Virus record (IMG/VR): IMGVR_UViG_3300049255_000352
Span: 1 to 20,712 of that record
DNA length: 20,712 nt
Reading direction: 5' to 3' (one strand)
Source: a virus
Shown here: positions 10,439-19,369 of the stretch, piece by piece
Numbering within the stretch: position 1 is the first letter of the stretch
Layout: every line of letters begins with the position of its first letter
Program-made: the position numbers and the translations under genes
Notes under the pieces: generated by a model
What the model was told of the DNA's origin: nothing
The model's input: only the letters and a program-made list of their open reading frames with translations
The model's database searches: none

Positions 10439-10835
10439 CGATACCCCCTCTGATCAATTCCTCCGTCAGGTCATTCGCGTTTTGATCGTCGATTTCCGGA
10501 TCGTCGAGCATTTGCTTGAGAACAGAATCAAGGGCCATGAATTGTTGTTCGGTTAGAGGCTCGCGATCATCGTGCAACGCTACCTTGAGTATCGCAATCA
10601 TTTCCTCGAATGCTTCGGATTGCGCGTCGTTTGCAAGATCCCAAAGAACACGGAGGTGATACTTGACCTCGGTTCGCGCGTTGCCTTGCGATATGGGGTC
10701 GTCGACCATTTCGCGGACAGTCGTTAGCGCTTCAATACAGCCCTGCAAACTGAGACGCCTGGCAGCGATACGATCGAAGAAGTTCGCGGAACCCCTCATA
10801 TTACGATAACGCCGGCTTGCTTTGGTTAAACTCAC
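10416..10835 (-). CDS. Small acidic partner of the PIN protein (module 2)
   Basis: The frame reaches a GTG at 10835 (139 aa), preceded by AAGGGTGG. An ATG at 10799, one base after the ASCH stop, would give 127 aa and tight coupling; I cannot decide between them. The protein is helical and acidic: LSLQGCIEALTTVREMVDDP, then FEEMIAILKVALHDD, then a C-terminal EIDDQNANDLTEELIRGGID and FREIE. This C-terminal half aligns by eye with the 203-aa partner at 12262-12873 (LK, I-D, E, G-x-D-x-FR). A small acidic protein translated just before and overlapping a PIN gene fits an antitoxin or regulatory subunit, but no DNA-binding motif is evident. Confidence 0.65.
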   Translation of the reverse strand: MSLTKASRRYRNMRGSANFFDRIAARRLSLQGCIEALTTVREMVDDPISQGNARTEVKYHLRVLWDLANDAQSEAFEEMIAILKVALHDDREPLTEQQFMALDSVLKQMLDDPEIDDQNANDLTEELIRGGIDVFREIE

Positions 10836-11283
10836 CGAGCGCCACCCTTATCCCCTCGCCATCCACCTCAAAAATCTTCTGCTGCCCGCGCATCGGCACT
10901 GGCCGGGCAAATGCAACCGGCTGACTGAGCAGAAAACAAACTGGCCCAATCGCTAGCGGATGCGAAAGCCTTTCGTCGGTCGTAGCGGCGTCTGGTGATA
11001 GCGAACAGCAATCGTCGAGATAGACCCTACCGACGATCGCGCCGTCGGACACTTCGTCCGGCGCCGTCACTCCCAAAGCTGCCAGCAAAGCTCGCGCGTC
11101 CTTGTCCCCTTTGCGACTCTCCGGCGATTTGGCCGCTGCATGAATCAGCAGCGGCCCGCGGTGCCGCGTCCGCCAGGATCGATTCTCGACCGGTTTGTGC
11201 CCATGGACGATTGCCCAAGCCCAGACGGGATAAACGACTAAAGCCTTCGGCTTAAACGGGCAATGGACAACGATCGGAAGCAT
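10801..11283 (-). CDS. ASCH-domain protein (module 2 leader gene)
   Basis: From the ATG at 11283 the product is 160 aa (MLPIVVHCPFKPKALVVYPV); the start at 11304 would add residues encoded by repeat DNA. The ASCH signature is clear: ALVVYPVWAWAIVHGHKPVE, then NRSWRTRHRGPLLIHAAA, then a DGAIVGRVYLDDCCSL strand and a second half ending in a IFEVDGEGIRVAL strand. ASCH domains have a PUA-like beta-barrel proposed to bind RNA; characterised members include ribonuclease and acetylcytidine amidohydrolase activities. Stand-alone ASCH genes are common in phages. Here the gene is followed with no gap by the partner and PIN genes, suggesting one transcript. Confidence 0.85.
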   Translation of the reverse strand: MLPIVVHCPFKPKALVVYPVWAWAIVHGHKPVENRSWRTRHRGPLLIHAAAKSPESRKGDKDARALLAALGVTAPDEVSDGAIVGRVYLDDCCSLSPDAATTDERLSHPLAIGPVCFLLSQPVAFARPVPMRGQQKIFEVDGEGIRVALGEFNQSKPALS

Positions 11284-11421
11284 TCTTATTTCCTCGTTGT
11301 CCATTGACCATTAACTGCTGTTTTGCTGCTAGTACAGAAATCGAAGGACATTGAAAATAGTGTGACGCACTCCAGCGCTGTATGCCGGGCGAAAGCCGTG
11401 CGTTACCTGATCGCTCTTGGA
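11284..11421. other. Short gap between modules with repeat remnant
   Basis: The ASCH-proximal part holds a single GTCCATTGACCATTAA remnant (11299-11314) of the window-wide repeat family. The rest shows a weak ACGCAC/GTGCGT inverted pair (11365-11403) around CCGGGCGAAAGCC and no gene. The module 2 promoter is presumably here but is not recognisable. Confidence 0.5.
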
Positions 11422-13855: not shown

Positions 13856-15034
13856 TCAATTGTCCATTAAACTGCGTTTGGTCGTCGCGAATCGTAACGC
13901 TTCCGCCCGCGGCATCGCCGGGCCAACGTAGCGGAACGACGCCGTGATGCGGCCGGCGCTAGTGGTTATTTTTGCATATTTGCCGGTGTTGTGAAAGGTC
14001 TTGTAGCGGGCGCTGGTGCATAGGCCGAGGTGCGTCCGCTGCCAGTTGGGAGATGCACTGCGATAATGGATCATGCCGGGGTGGCTGGTGACGGACGCGG
14101 CCCCTTTGCCTAGGCCGGTCCAGATCGACGCGCAAAACTCGCTGAGACGATTTCCGATTCCGAGCCCTTGATAATCTGGCAAGACCACCGTGCGATGTTC
14201 ACGCATGTCGGGGGCTCGTCCGCGGGACGACGGCATGCCGCTCAGCCAGGCCGAGAAGGCTACGGGCTGGCCGCGAAGAAAGGCGCAGAAGCATTGGGAG
14301 CTTTTGCTGATGGCCGTGTTCAGATAATGATGACGGCGGAAGATCGTCCAGGCATGGCGATGGACCGGAGCGATCTCGAACTTGATGGGCGGCCGCCGCC
14401 AAAGACGCCCCCTTGCCAGCACGCCGCTGGCTTCGCTGGTCGGCGTCATGTCGAGCACCCAATCGGGTTCAAGCCAATCGAGAATGTCGTAATGGCAAGT
14501 AATGGCCACGAACCGCCGGGTGAACTGGCCTTTGCGAATGGCCTTTGAAAGAGCCGCGCTGCCCATCTGGGCCACCGTGCGATCGACGACGCTCGTGAAC
14601 TCGTCGAAGGCCACGACCGGCCGATCGGTGAGCATCGCCCGGGCCAGGTCGCAACGGAAGCGTTCGCCGTTCGAAAGGACTGCATAGGGTTTGACCCATG
14701 ACGGCGGTGAACTGATGCCGACGCTGGTGAGCGACTGAACGATGCTCTTGATCGATAGTCCTGCGGGAAAGCCGTCGAGCATGGCCCGACCGGACGGCCA
14801 GCCGCGGCTTTTATAGAGTGCTTTGCCGAAGACCTTGCGGGCCACGGTACTCTTGCCGCTGCCGGATGGGCCCACGATGGCCCCGATCTGCCAATCCTCA
14901 TCCGCGCCGGGTACTTCCACGTGAAACTTGCTTCGGGCAGCTTTCTCGAGTTGCAGATCGAACATGCCGCGAACCTGATCGACGCGAAAGCTCGTGTAAA
15001 CGGGGCACTCGACTATAGCGTCAACAACCGGCAT
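13856..15034 (-). CDS. ABC-type ATPase fused to a GNAT acetyltransferase domain
   Basis: From the ATG at 15034 the product is 392 aa (MPVVDAIVECPVYTSFRVDQ). I prefer this start because it overlaps the 67-aa gene by 22 bases; the longer frame reads through that gene and a palindrome. The N-terminal ATPase has Walker A GPSGSGKST (55-63), an ABC signature-like LSNGE (120-124), Walker B VVAFDE (140-145) and an H-loop His181. The C-terminal half is GNAT-like, with HHYLN near 235 and the acetyl-CoA loop Q289-G-x-G-x-G294 in LPDYQGLGIGNRL. No membrane segment is present, so it is not a transporter. The last residues, LMDN, and the stop are encoded by intergenic repeat sequence. The role in a phage head operon is unknown; a modification or DNA/ribosome-acting ATPase is possible. 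Confidence 0.85.
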   Translation of the reverse strand: MPVVDAIVECPVYTSFRVDQVRGMFDLQLEKAARSKFHVEVPGADEDWQIGAIVGPSGSGKSTVARKVFGKALYKSRGWPSGRAMLDGFPAGLSIKSIVQSLTSVGISSPPSWVKPYAVLSNGERFRCDLARAMLTDRPVVAFDEFTSVVDRTVAQMGSAALSKAIRKGQFTRRFVAITCHYDILDWLEPDWVLDMTPTSEASGVLARGRLWRRPPIKFEIAPVHRHAWTIFRRHHYLNTAISKSSQCFCAFLRGQPVAFSAWLSGMPSSRGRAPDMREHRTVVLPDYQGLGIGNRLSEFCASIWTGLGKGAASVTSHPGMIHYRSASPNWQRTHLGLCTSARYKTFHNTGKYAKITTSAGRITASFRYVGPAMPRAEALRFATTKRSLMDN

Positions 15035-15219
15035 GATCGGCCCTCTTGTCGCATGCGTTCGTAGAGCGTCCTCTGGTCGGCCTCGTCCGTACATTCCACG
15101 ACGACGCTCCAACGCTCGGCGATTTTCGGACGCGCGATCAGCGCAGGCTCGGGCCGCCTTCGGCCGCGCGAGGCAGGTCGGTTTGGTTGGTGCTTCTTGT
15201 CGCGGGATGCTTTTGCCAT
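15013..15219 (-). CDS. Small basic protein overlapping the ABC-GNAT gene
   Basis: A 68-aa product starting MAKASRDKKHQPNRPASRGR. The first 28 residues are strongly basic and look disordered. The remainder is a compact-looking alpha/beta element, ERWSVVVECTDEADQRTLYE followed by a helix and a final CRLLTL strand. It overlaps the ATPase start by 22 bases, so translation is probably coupled and the two products probably act together. The same reading frame has no better alternative, and its codon pattern looks coding. Function unknown; a nucleic-acid-binding accessory subunit is a reasonable guess. Confidence 0.65.
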   Translation of the reverse strand: MAKASRDKKHQPNRPASRGRRRPEPALIARPKIAERWSVVVECTDEADQRTLYERMRQEGRSCRLLTL

Positions 15220-15241
15220 TTTCCCAATTTCCGAGGTGATT

Positions 15242-15408
15242 GTAGGGTGGGACCAGCGAGCCTCGGCGAGCGCCGGCCCACCATGGAGAGGCTTGAGGAA
15301 CCACAGTTTCCGCTGCGCCCTAGGACGCGAGCCTCAGAACTCAAGCCGCTTCCTGGTGGGCCGGCGCTACGGCTCGCTTCGCGATGGCCGTCGCTTGTCC
15401 CACCCTAC
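15242..15408. repeat. Long imperfect palindrome, copy C (GTAGGGTGGGAC family)
   Basis: Bounded by GTAGGGTGGGAC at 15242-15253 and GTCCCACCCTAC at 15397-15408, with internal GCCGGCCCACC/GTGGGCCGGC and TTGAGG/CTCAAG pairing. It lies between the portal stop and the small basic gene, so it is transcribed as a large hairpin at the end of the portal gene. Confidence 0.85.
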
Positions 15409-15420
15409 CATCTGAAAACT

Positions 15421-16911
15421 TCAGACTCCTTCGACCTTTATCTGCTGCTGCTCGCTCTCGGCGTCGAGATTGTTTCGTACCGACCACGACTTTCGGCTCA
15501 AGACTTTGTTGCCGGCCAGGATGGCGTCGGCTTGCGTGTCTTTCAGGCGGTCGCGGCTGATGATCAGCGGTGGCTCGGCGTCGATGTCGATCAGTTCGAG
15601 GACGTCCGAGGGCAGACGGTCTTTCTCGGCAGCCAGGTCCAATGCTCGTTTGAGGATGATCAAATCGTCGTCAATCATGGCCTGTTGCATCACCTGAAAC
15701 GTTTTCACGGCCGGGCCTTCGGCCACCATGGTGCTGGAGAAATTGGCGTTGCTGGCGTCGGCCGAGACCATGTACTCGGGCAACCCTATGGCGGCGGCCA
15801 CGGAACGCAGCTCGGCCTGGATGCTGGCCGCGATCTTGTCCACGTCGGTCTGGGCCGAGGGAAACTCGTAGGTCGTTTGATCGTTGGTGTCGAGTATCGC
15901 TGCCTGCGGGTAGCGATTGATCGTCGAAGGCATGCCGTCGCCTTGCGCGGGCTTGCCAGAAAGCAACGTTTTCACCGTCGATACGGTCGCGTTGACGTGC
16001 TTGCGGATGAGGGCGATCTTCGCGCGGAACTCGACCAGCGCGCCCATATTGCTCAGCGTGCGCAACGCCTGCCGGCAGCGGGTCATGACGAAGAAGGTCG
16101 TGGGCAGTCCGCGCGGGCTCGACATATCGACATTGGCCGTGCGGTGCAAGATTTCTTCGGGCGGGACAATCATCGCCCAACCGGCCGCGCCATCCATCCT
16201 GGACGGGCTATCGCCGCTGCCGGGAAAGGCCGAGCCCAGATAGTTCGCCGGGCGGATGTAATAGCCTTGCGGGTCTTCGTAATCGCCCGCGTATTGGATG
16301 CCGAACCACACGTCTTGCTCGGGGCCTTTGCTTGGCGGCGTTGCGACCAAGAGCGGCTCGACGAAGCGAACCCTGAGAATGCCATCGTCCGACTTATCGA
16401 AGAACCGCAGAAAGAACTCGCCGTCGCGTTCCAGGCGGCGGCGTCGCTCTGCCTGGCGAGCGCCCCAGCGGTTCACGCGGCAGAAGGCGTCAATCTCGCG
16501 TTTGGCGTCGCGCAAAACCTGTTTCATGTCTGGATCGCTGGCGTCGGCCTCGGGATCTTTGGGAACGACCTTGTACGCATGGCCAGTGCCGACCACGTGC
16601 GTGACGATGTTATGCTCCACGGCCAGCCAATAGGGATTGCGGATGGCAAAGGCCCTCGAATTGGCGCGAAGCTGCTTGAGTTCCGTCTCGTTGATGTACA
16701 CGGCGGCCGTTGAGCCAGGGTAGATGAAGGCCCGCGACTGGCCGGTAGCTTCGTCGAAGAGCATGCCGAAGTTGCTCGGCCCGTCGAAGGAAGATATCTC
16801 CGACAGATCGACCATGCGGCCGAACATATCGGCAGCTTCGGAGAGCGTTTCGAGCCGAGCCAGCGCGGTGCGGCGGGCGGCGTCGGAGTCGTGCGTTGTG
16901 GATTCGGTCAC
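15421..16911 (-). CDS. Phage portal protein
   Basis: A 496-aa protein with a GTG start at 16911 preceded by GAGG. The size and place directly downstream of the large terminase fit a lambda-B/SPP1-type portal. Recognisable portal features are the N-terminal RNPYWLAVEHNIVTHVVGTG (stem-like), RWGARQAERRRRLERDGEFF, the ILRVRFVEPLLVATPP wing, a PPEEILHR segment and the ATVSTVKTLL helix. The region AASIQAELRSVAAAIGLPEY to the following SNANFSSTM segment is the classic portal 'GlP..l.sd.s.aNyss' motif. Twelve copies form the DNA entry vertex and dock the terminase. Confidence 0.9.
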   Translation of the reverse strand: MTESTTHDSDAARRTALARLETLSEAADMFGRMVDLSEISSFDGPSNFGMLFDEATGQSRAFIYPGSTAAVYINETELKQLRANSRAFAIRNPYWLAVEHNIVTHVVGTGHAYKVVPKDPEADASDPDMKQVLRDAKREIDAFCRVNRWGARQAERRRRLERDGEFFLRFFDKSDDGILRVRFVEPLLVATPPSKGPEQDVWFGIQYAGDYEDPQGYYIRPANYLGSAFPGSGDSPSRMDGAAGWAMIVPPEEILHRTANVDMSSPRGLPTTFFVMTRCRQALRTLSNMGALVEFRAKIALIRKHVNATVSTVKTLLSGKPAQGDGMPSTINRYPQAAILDTNDQTTYEFPSAQTDVDKIAASIQAELRSVAAAIGLPEYMVSADASNANFSSTMVAEGPAVKTFQVMQQAMIDDDLIILKRALDLAAEKDRLPSDVLELIDIDAEPPLIISRDRLKDTQADAILAGNKVLSRKSWSVRNNLDAESEQQQIKVEGV

Positions 16912-17031: not shown

Positions 17032-18402
17032 TCGAGCCCGCATTTCTCTCGCAACAGTCGCACCGCCATCTCGAGCGCGTCCGGACCGTCGTCGTGTTCG
17101 CCTAGGGGGAACTCTTCAAGCTGCCTGACCAAAAGTTTGGCACCGGGCGAGTCGGACTTGAAGCGGAGTTTGCGCTGTTGCAGATACGGGCTGAGTCGTT
17201 GAATGCGGACCCGCTTGCTGCAGCTTTCGGTGGTGATGCCTTCCACCGGCACAAGCAGGTTGCGGCGAGCGGCCGACGATGCGATCATAGCGAGCAACGC
17301 TTGGCCGCCAAACTCCTGTTCGATGCCCAAGTAATGCACGTTCCAGGCAACAGCCAGGTCCACGGCCAGGTCGGCGATGGTGATCGTATTGCGGTCGTTG
17401 GCCATGTCGGCGTCGCAATACAGGGTGCCGTCGAGCAGTTGCACCTTCACGAAGGCCGAATAGTCGCCGCTGTTGCCGCCTACGCCTTTGGAAGAATCGA
17501 CCGCAATCACTCGCTGGCCGCCGGGCAGCCATTCGTCGAACCAGATATGGGGGCCGAAACATCTCCGGCGGCCACTCCACGCCGCCTTCTTTACGAGGAT
17601 CGAGTGCGTACTGCGCGGCCCACCAGTAAGGCGACGCGGCCTGCTTCTTCAGGATCTCGACCGGCCACAAATCCGGCCACAAGGACTCGCTTTCACCGCG
17701 GCCGAGGAAGTCGAGTTCTTCCGACAAGGCCGGCAGCCGCAGCAGCGTCCAAGGCTCGCCGCGCTTTTCGCCCTCTTCCAAAATATGCCCTAGCAGGTCG
17801 TTGGAATGCCAGCGATAGCCGGTGACGATGATCCACCCCTCTGGCATGAGCCGGGTCATGAGCGTCGATTGCCACCATTGCCAGGCCGACGCGCGCTGCA
17901 CAGCCGAGAGGGCTGCGCGGGAATCTTTGAGAAGGTCGTCGGCAATGATGCCATGCGGATGGTGGCCGGTAAGCGGTCCGCCCATGCCCACCGCGCGCAC
18001 GCCGCCGGCATGCCCTGCCAGATGCCAGCGTGTGGCAGCCGCACGGCGCGGATCGACATCCACGCCGGAATGCTCCGGGCCATATTCTCGGCACAGGTCG
18101 CGAGCGATCTCGCTCGAATCGCGGGCCAGGTCCTTGCCATAGCTGACAATCTGCAAGACATGTTCCGGGTTATTGCCCAAGTACCACGAAGGATACCACT
18201 GGCTGATCTGCATCGTCTTGCCGTGGCCGGGCGGCTCCAGAACCATCAGCCGCTTGAGCCGACCGTCGGCCACGTTCCTCAAGTAGCAGTCGACCAAGCC
18301 AGCATGGCGATTAAGCGTCCAGCGGCCATAACTGCAAAGCTTAGCCCAAGCACCGGGGGTGGCGAAGCTGGGAAGTATTCCGTTGTTTTCGGCGTTAAAC
18401 AT
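17028..18402 (-). CDS. Terminase large subunit, interrupted by a one-base frameshift
   Basis: The ATP-dependent DNA packaging motor, about 457 aa if the frame is restored. The first frame (from ATG 18402) carries Walker A PPGHGKT (residues 57-63) and Walker B HGIIADD near residue 150. It loses sense after GVEWPPEMF near 17557. The nuclease half continues in another frame: GPHIWFDEWLPGGQRVIAVD, then GIEQEFGG and DDGPDALEMA, giving the catalytic D, E and D of the RNase H-like nuclease. The switch falls at a G5 run on the plus strand (17549-17553); removing one base restores EMFRPHIWFDEW. A sequencing error or a real inactivating mutation are the main explanations. Upstream 116-aa protein, downstream portal: normal packaging order except that no small terminase is seen. 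Confidence 0.85.
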
Positions 18403-18844: not shown

Positions 18845-18988
18845 TAATTGATAATTGATAATGGATAATGGATAATGAGAAGGCTGATAGCCGATCGTTG
18901 ATTTTTCATAAACGCGGAGATAATGAATAGCTGGTAATTGGGACAGATGTGCGTGAATTATCAATTATCCATTATCAATTATCCATTA
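18845..18988. repeat. Inverted GATAATTG/CAATTATC arrays, widely spaced
   Basis: TTGATAATTGATAATGGATA and neighbouring units at 18847-18877 face AATTATCAATTATCCATTAT at 18956-18975, with about 80 unrelated bases between. The right-hand array supplies the TAA stop of the thioredoxin-like gene. Confidence 0.9.
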
Positions 18989-19369
18989 CTTCACGCCGAG
19001 CCACAGCCGAATGCTCGGCAGGCCGACGATGATGCGGGGAGCAAGCCAGCGGCCGCCTCGGCGCTCGTAATAGAGGATGGCGGGGACCATGGGCGTGGCC
19101 GGGAACTGTTGGGCGAAACGCGGATCGCGATCGACATCGATATGGATATAGCAACCGCGTTGGGCAATGTAGGGCGCGTAGAGTCGTTGCATCTCGTGGC
19201 AGGGCTGGCAGTAGGTCGCTCCCAAGGCAACGATCAAGGGCCGATTCGTTTGCTCGGCCGTGCTGTAGGCGTCGGCATAGCTGAAGTGCTCGGCCGATTT
19301 GGCCGGAAGCGAAAGGCACACCGTGATAAACAAGGCGATGGCAAGTTGGACGATGGACTTCCGTTTCAT
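18986..19369 (-). CDS. Exported thioredoxin-like protein
   Basis: A 127-aa protein with a classic signal peptide: MKRKSIVQLAIALFITVCLS, followed by LPAKSA with a likely cleavage after AKSA. The mature part has a thioredoxin-fold layout: PLIVALGATYCQPCHEMQRL contains the redox CQPC, then a helix, a YIHIDVDRDPRFAQQF strand-helix and MVPAILYYER with the cis-proline segment (VP). It lacks the full length of a standard thioredoxin C terminus but ends with a helix-like LPSIRLWLG. It would act outside the cytoplasmic membrane on disulphides, perhaps of its Cys-rich upstream neighbour, which is an inference. It is an unusual passenger next to packaging genes. Confidence 0.85.
   Translation of the reverse strand: MKRKSIVQLAIALFITVCLSLPAKSAEHFSYADAYSTAEQTNRPLIVALGATYCQPCHEMQRLYAPYIAQRGCYIHIDVDRDPRFAQQFPATPMVPAILYYERRGGRWLAPRIIVGLPSIRLWLGVK

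Follow-up and report, generated by a model that had tools for sequence, protein, structure and literature searches.

The locus described here lies on the minus strand of a 20,712-base virus record (IMG/VR record IMGVR_UViG_3300049255_000352; this whole stretch is called the window), which may be a fragment; the absence of ParB from the window holds for that record alone. Along this strand the order is terminase large subunit (17116-18402; phrog_38, 9.5e-56), portal (15421-16911; PF05136, 1.3e-19), a small gene of 68 amino acids immediately downstream of the portal gene (15013-15219; phrog_28816, 8.3e-5) and a gene encoding a 392-amino acid fusion of an ABC ATPase with a GNAT acyltransferase (ABC-GNAT; 13856-15034). 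A list of open reading frames (ORFs) had extended the fusion to a GTG start at 15304; this start was dropped in favour of the ATG at 15034, which yields the 392-amino acid protein and an overlap of exactly 22 nucleotides (15013-15034) with the 68-amino acid ORF, as proposed in a first-pass annotation made from the sequence alone.

ABC-GNAT is a single polypeptide in which a complete ABC ATPase (residues 1-213) is followed by a GNAT domain (residues 212-392; 13859-14401). Motif conservation was judged on an alignment of 59 diverse relatives, in which the residues of Walker A, the signature, Walker B, the H-loop and the QGxG loop are invariant, as are the GNAT WxxF/HYL and R/V/P positions. The ATPase carries Walker A as GPSGSGKST (residues 55-63; 14846-14872; G55, S57, G58, G60 and K61 invariant), the ABC signature as LSNGE (residues 120-124; 14663-14677; L120, S121 and G123 invariant), Walker B with its catalytic Glu as VVAFDE (residues 140-145; 14600-14617; D144 and E145 invariant) and the H-loop His181 within CHYD (14492-14494; C180, H181, Y182 and D183 invariant). 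The GNAT domain contains a family-specific element, HHYL (residues 235-238; 14321-14332), with Y237 and L238 invariant and H236 conserved at 90% or more, and an acyl-coenzyme A (acyl-CoA) binding loop, PDYQGLGIG (residues 286-294; 14153-14179), with P286, Q289, G290 and G292 invariant. Pfam scored ABC_tran above its cut-off (5.2e-8) and GNAT domains just below theirs (2.6e-4 and 8.7e-4), phrog_11143 covers the whole fusion protein (2e-94, residues 102-464 of the longest ORF), and the homologue in phage pT24 (H46) matches at 1e-48 over 81%. The protein belongs to phrog_11143, the ABC-GNAT family.

The AlphaFold model of the whole protein has a predicted local distance difference test (pLDDT) score of 88, and its residues 1-213 align with solved nucleotide-binding domains (NBDs) with a best Z of 15.1 (root-mean-square deviation (rmsd) 3.4, 186 residues aligned). 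As the structure list obtained with the whole model (VIA) held ABC chains only, the GNAT domain was modelled and searched separately; this model, also with a pLDDT of 88, matches 1y9k (Z 13.3, rmsd 3.2, 136 residues) and RimI (Z 12.5), and its QGLGIG loop, which has the Q/R-x-x-G-x-G pattern of GNATs, sits between a strand (277-284) and a helix (293-307). The four ABC motifs listed above and the NBD fold mark the N-terminal half as an ABC ATPase. The invariant motifs, the phrog_11143 match and the two modelled folds show that the ATPase-acetyltransferase fusion is genuine, and a C-terminal half of another fold, which would have undone the first-pass annotation, is not what was found. An ABC transporter was also considered and rejected: the protein has no membrane domain, and the model, made of NBD 1-213 and GNAT 212-392, leaves no room for one, in agreement with the initial claim that no membrane segment is present. 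As a separate observation, the PADLOC mad3 profile matches the region of the ABC signature (residues 105-164, 1.3e-11), which probably reflects general ABC similarity.

The concern that the fusion might be an artefact of two adjacent genes is answered by the window and nearly all relatives, where it is one continuous ORF. Eight genomes, from Lactococcus, Streptococcus, Oenococcus, Enterococcus and Thomasclavelia phages (L085, L084, L092, L279, L280, L281, L282 and L283), have split frames: in these Firmicutes phages the ABC and GNAT halves are in the 0 and -1 frames with an overlap of 31-44 codons, and in six of the eight the GNAT frame has no ATG, GTG or TTG ahead of the conserved HYL motif. 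This arrangement suggests that the two halves are joined by a programmed -1 frameshift; no consistent slippery site was identified in the frame overlap of the eight genomes. In a planctomycete ABC-GNAT (L265) the family match falls in two pieces within an open frame of 562 amino acids, which suggests an insertion.

In most relatives the gene just upstream of ABC-GNAT encodes a ParB/Srx-domain protein. A profile made from the C-terminal 35 residues of the window's small protein matches the C-termini of these ParB/Srx proteins, and comparison with the C-terminus of the ParB of contig L002 gives 58% identity over 36 amino acids (5e-12), an identity which argues that the 68-amino acid ORF is a real gene. 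The shared segment (residues 34-68; 15016-15120), hereafter the tail, has the alignment consensus YxVIVxCxDExxQxxxYxxLxxxGxxCxVxx, a pattern that evidently corresponds to a beta-alpha-beta fold. The independently built phrog_28816 matches the small protein of the window, that of L049 and residues 196-223 of the L002 ParB. Together, the shared profile and the phrog_28816 matches show that the small protein is the C-terminal domain of the ParB/Srx partner, here encoded by a gene of its own. The window's small protein has the tail only, with no ParB/Srx core domain, and no ParB is encoded across the 20.7 kb. The Phycisphaerales genome L129 and the Mu-like group have stand-alone tails too; no natural case of a tail fused directly to ABC-GNAT was found. 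The small basic protein of the first-pass annotation is thus a real gene coupled to the fusion; it is not an independent protein, being a ParB tail, and its basic N-terminus is not conserved among relatives.

Of 119 relatives, 32 offer a start codon that would give the 22-nucleotide overlap, an ATG in 22 cases, and 65 offer one for an overlap of 4 nucleotides. The overlap of tail stop and enzyme start by 22 or 4 nucleotides in most loci is consistent with translational coupling. A FastTree phylogeny with Shimodaira-Hasegawa-like support places the window as sister of L002 and L004; as these two have a ParB-borne tail, the simplest account is that the lineage of the window lost its ParB or had it moved elsewhere. 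Three loci have two tail-bearing ORFs in tandem, the second of which precedes or follows ABC-GNAT (L006:6009-6575, L021:1299-1835 and L054:3874-4611).

The tail adjoins ABC-GNAT in 119 of 127 loci; such locus counts include related phages, and the counts based on the tree come from a set thinned of near-identical rows. Of the eight remaining loci, two are cut by a contig end and one (L091) has a tail that is divergent by eye. Whole-genome searches with the tail alone gave one match in each of six genomes, always adjoining ABC-GNAT, and a search of 294 Planctomycetota genomes gave 16 matches, 15 of them adjoining ABC-GNAT and one weak and partial. None of 122 Mom loci has a tail.

In the same tree, clade I comprises 32 non-redundant rows, including the window, and clade II 61 rows, among them Mu-like prophages with Com ahead. 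No formyltransferase gene was found among the 32 rows of clade I; in clade II one directly follows ABC-GNAT in 49 of the 54 rows that have enough downstream sequence (PF00551, up to 4.5e-18). Formyltransferases carry an active-site Asn (N-x-H). Among 61 clade II loci (L049:9104-9709 and 60 others), the partner reads G-Y-H-P-S-L-L-P in 54, and the clade II enzyme may catalyse a different reaction.

Some clade I members have an ASCH-domain gene nearby, which in the window lies on the minus strand at 10801-11304, 2.6 kb from ABC-GNAT (PF04266, 5.5e-4, just under the cut-off). Another 13 of 35 clade I loci have ASCH genes no further than 2.6 kb away, and in eight loci the distance to the ABC-GNAT end is about 160 nucleotides or less; in clade I the two genes are often convergent. 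No ASCH gene was found near clade II members with a profile seeded with clade I members, which favours clade I. Among the 24 genes of the window, only tail, ABC-GNAT and ASCH have relatives in the nearest contigs L002, L003 and L004 (56-58%, 58-60% and 38-45% identity, respectively; in the alignment of relatives, ABC-GNAT is 61% identical to that of L002); as the only genes shared over the stretches compared, these three travel together between otherwise different phages. ASCH belongs to the PUA superfamily, whose members bind nucleic acids and modified bases. Among solved structures, the window's ASCH protein is closest to the ASCH domain of human ASC-1/TRIP4 (1.9e-12), a domain to which enhancement of DNA binding has been attributed (PMC10076317). 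An eraser role as a YqfB-type N4-acylcytosine amidohydrolase was rejected: the Lys21-Thr24-Glu74 triad is absent, the window protein reading GHKPVENR with Glu at the place of Thr24, and the nucleophile is not conserved.

The gene contexts of ABC-GNAT resemble those of the DNA-modifying enzyme Mom, of which Com is the translational activator according to the annotation of the Mu record. The Mu-like prophages of the family have the order Com (PF10122, 3.4e-13), tail and ABC-GNAT, followed in most of them by a formyltransferase, and Com was found in 43 ABC-GNAT loci; by its position behind Com, ABC-GNAT occupies the slot of mom in these prophages. A second shared slot involves ParB. In Psychrobacter phage Y8A, ParB overlaps Mom and is followed by terminase, and seven further viral contigs have ParB directly ahead of Mom; the order ParB, ABC-GNAT, terminase of Gordonia, Lactococcus, Streptococcus and Leptospira phages matches that of Y8A. 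As the Mom loci were gathered with Mu and Y8A as queries, the counts obtained (68 with Com, 8 with ParB) record occurrence and not frequency. GATC clusters are known ahead of Mu mom; ahead of Com in the present loci they are not general, most having none. The L049 Com, used as a query of the phage collection, gave no match.

The ABC ATPase-coupled GNATs, including that of pT24, were earlier predicted to acylate a DNA base (Iyer et al. 2013; a 2021 paper on jumbo phages; PMC7824862), and ASCH-GNAT-ATPase associations elsewhere have been given a similar interpretation (PMC7641849). The family is very probably one that attaches a small chemical group to nucleic acid, and the proposal that the fusion modifies phage or host macromolecules is plausible. 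With a confidence only a little above even, we favour a reading in which the two genes form a module, expressed late, that would acylate phage DNA with the help of ATP before packaging, like Mom but without being one. The specificity of the tail for ABC-GNAT, the recurrence of tail, ABC-GNAT and ASCH in the nearest contigs and the presence of the base acetyltransferase TmcA among the many GNATs matched by the GNAT model speak for this reading. Four lines of context point to DNA acylation: the mom slot behind Com in Mu-like prophages; ParB ahead of Mom in Y8A and the seven contigs, arranged as in ParB and ABC-GNAT; the earlier prediction for the family; and the like interpretation of ASCH-GNAT-ATPase associations. 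The first-pass annotation had seen no obvious packaging role for such a fusion beside a portal gene. The setting, with portal and terminase or with Com, is that of a late Mom-type modifier, for which modification of the DNA ahead of packaging is a sensible answer.

In the mechanism we envisage, two ABC domains would dimerise on ATP and clamp or scan DNA, and the tail would dock on ABC-GNAT; where fused to ParB, it would tie the enzyme to the nucleotide-switched DNA clamp of ParB, and in the window it would act alone. With acyl-CoA as the donor, the GNAT domain would acylate an exocyclic amine of a base (N6 of adenine, N4 of cytosine or N2 of guanine), and the modified DNA would resist host nucleases and then be packaged. 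The ASCH protein might bind, regulate or protect the modified nucleic acid, and in the other half of the family the formyltransferase-like enzyme might supply or alter the added group. The clamp and its drive by ATP, the docking of the tail, the target base and the nature of the acyl group are our inference.

Several observations weigh against the favoured reading. The fold neighbours of the GNAT model are mostly protein or small-molecule acetyltransferases, and membership of the Mom family was rejected, the hhalign comparison (E 0.06 over 50 columns) not being significant. Com, ParB, Mom and formyltransferase are all absent from the window's 20.7 kb, in a record that may be incomplete. Mom and ABC-GNAT do not exclude each other, as both are present in 2 of 44 records; ABC-GNAT occurs together with a Mom homologue in one phage in L093 and L170 (Aeromonas phage PX29) and in the L050 record. 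The T4-like phages L090 and L093 have ABC-GNAT and no recognisable tail, and the tail may be dispensable there.

Acetylation of a protein (host RNA polymerase, or a ribosomal, nucleoid or head protein) for host takeover or to block defence would fit RimI and Naa50 among the GNAT fold neighbours and has a precedent in the phage GNAT Rac, predicted to acetylate the alpha subunit of host RNA polymerase and so bring about its cleavage (PMC7824862). As this would leave unexplained the ABC ATPase, the pairing with ParB tails, Com ahead and the slots shared with Mom, we regard it as unlikely. Host or phage RNA as the substrate is a quite improbable alternative: the enzyme would be an ATP-dependent base acetyltransferase like TmcA/NAT10, with ASCH as its RNA-binding partner. 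The Foldseek list of the GNAT model does include the base acetyltransferase TmcA (2zpa, E 2.3e-5) and a chain of the human small-subunit processome (7mq8), amid many other GNATs, and ASCH/PUA domains often bind RNA (PMC7641849), but the ATPase is an ABC domain, unlike the TmcA helicase, and the ParB/Srx pairing, Com control and pre-terminase position suit DNA better. A role in packaging or genome handling, in which ParB-tail and ABC ATPase would mark or organise DNA for terminase and GNAT would regulate this by acetylation, draws on ParB-terminase synteny in several cultured phages and on terminase genes within 6 kb in at least 37 of 127 loci (eight terminase seeds used). Terminase is, however, not the neighbour of ABC-GNAT in Mu-like prophages or in T4-like phages, and we hold such a role to be very unlikely. 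Least probable is a prophage-borne defence or toxin module against other phages: GNATs and ABC ATPases occur in defence systems and there is the weak mad3 match, but this match is limited to residues 105-164 and the gene is also found in lytic-type and T4-like phages and in late-gene positions.

Returning to the reading of a late DNA acyl-modifier, the window protein shares family, architecture and predicted role with the predicted base acyl-modifier of pT24 (phrog_11143). With the Com-Mom system of Mu, ABC-GNAT shares a late slot, after Com or after ParB and before terminase. Mom likewise belongs to the GNAT superfamily and has an HY[S/L] motif close to the N-terminal end of the domain; unlike Mom, ABC-GNAT has an acyl-CoA loop, an ABC ATPase and a tail partner. 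The Mom motifs HYS, ELNRxW and SFADxRxG are absent from the window protein. Judged by position and presumed product, ABC-GNAT works like Mom, yet it is not a Mom. TmcA/NAT10, a cytidine N4-acetyltransferase, also joins a GNAT to an ATP-hydrolysing domain and acetylates a nucleobase, but its ATPase is a helicase, which the window's ABC domain is not, and its substrate is RNA. The (PIN)-GNAT-EVE-ASCH systems (PMC7641849) likewise bring a GNAT together with members of the PUA superfamily, ASCH among them, and in many cases with an ATPase; they differ in their AAA_17-type ATPase and fused EVE, and no ParB or tail is described for them. A ParB-acetyltransferase fusion (PMC12704722) links a ParB fold to an acetyltransferase, as in ABC-GNAT loci; that fusion is direct, with reported GTP binding, whereas the ABC-GNAT link runs via a separate tail domain.

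The ABC-GNAT family is widespread in phages and was previously predicted, and is therefore not new; no experimental test of its DNA-acylation prediction was found in the literature. New here is the identity of the small protein as a ParB/Srx tail. The present data further bring out the partnership with the tail and its separation from ParB, the control by Com, a clade with formyltransferase and the link to ASCH, some of which Iyer et al. 2013 may already mention. The family is thereby given a near-constant partner, a control element shared with Mom, another enzyme in one of its clades and carriers in culture, such as Pseudomonas phage Komp_PAO1_1 (which has the formyltransferase), Lactococcus P335 and the Gordonia phages BiggityBass and Jace. 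More tentatively, and with some doubt, ABC-GNAT might form the centre of a separate kind of DNA hypermodification system, evolved independently of Mom but using the same Com switch, in which an ABC clamp driven by ATP would carry a base modifier dependent on acyl-CoA and a tail that can be detached from ParB would direct it to its target; a second step would be performed, in half of the family, by an enzyme of the formyltransferase fold that lacks the usual active-site Asn, and one or two base modifications new to nature would result. If the family does acylate DNA, phage anti-restriction chemistry would gain a further class of enzyme, and many phage genes now labelled ABC or siderophore transporters would be accounted for.

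Two further features lie near the locus. In the gap that separates portal from the small gene, the expected place of a ParB, nested inverted repeats with arms of 22 and 29 nucleotides, about 90% complementary (15238-15412), look like a small mobile or repetitive extragenic palindrome (REP)-like element. Upstream of terminase, 18986-19369 encodes a thioredoxin-like protein (PF13899, 1.1e-5, just under the cut-off).
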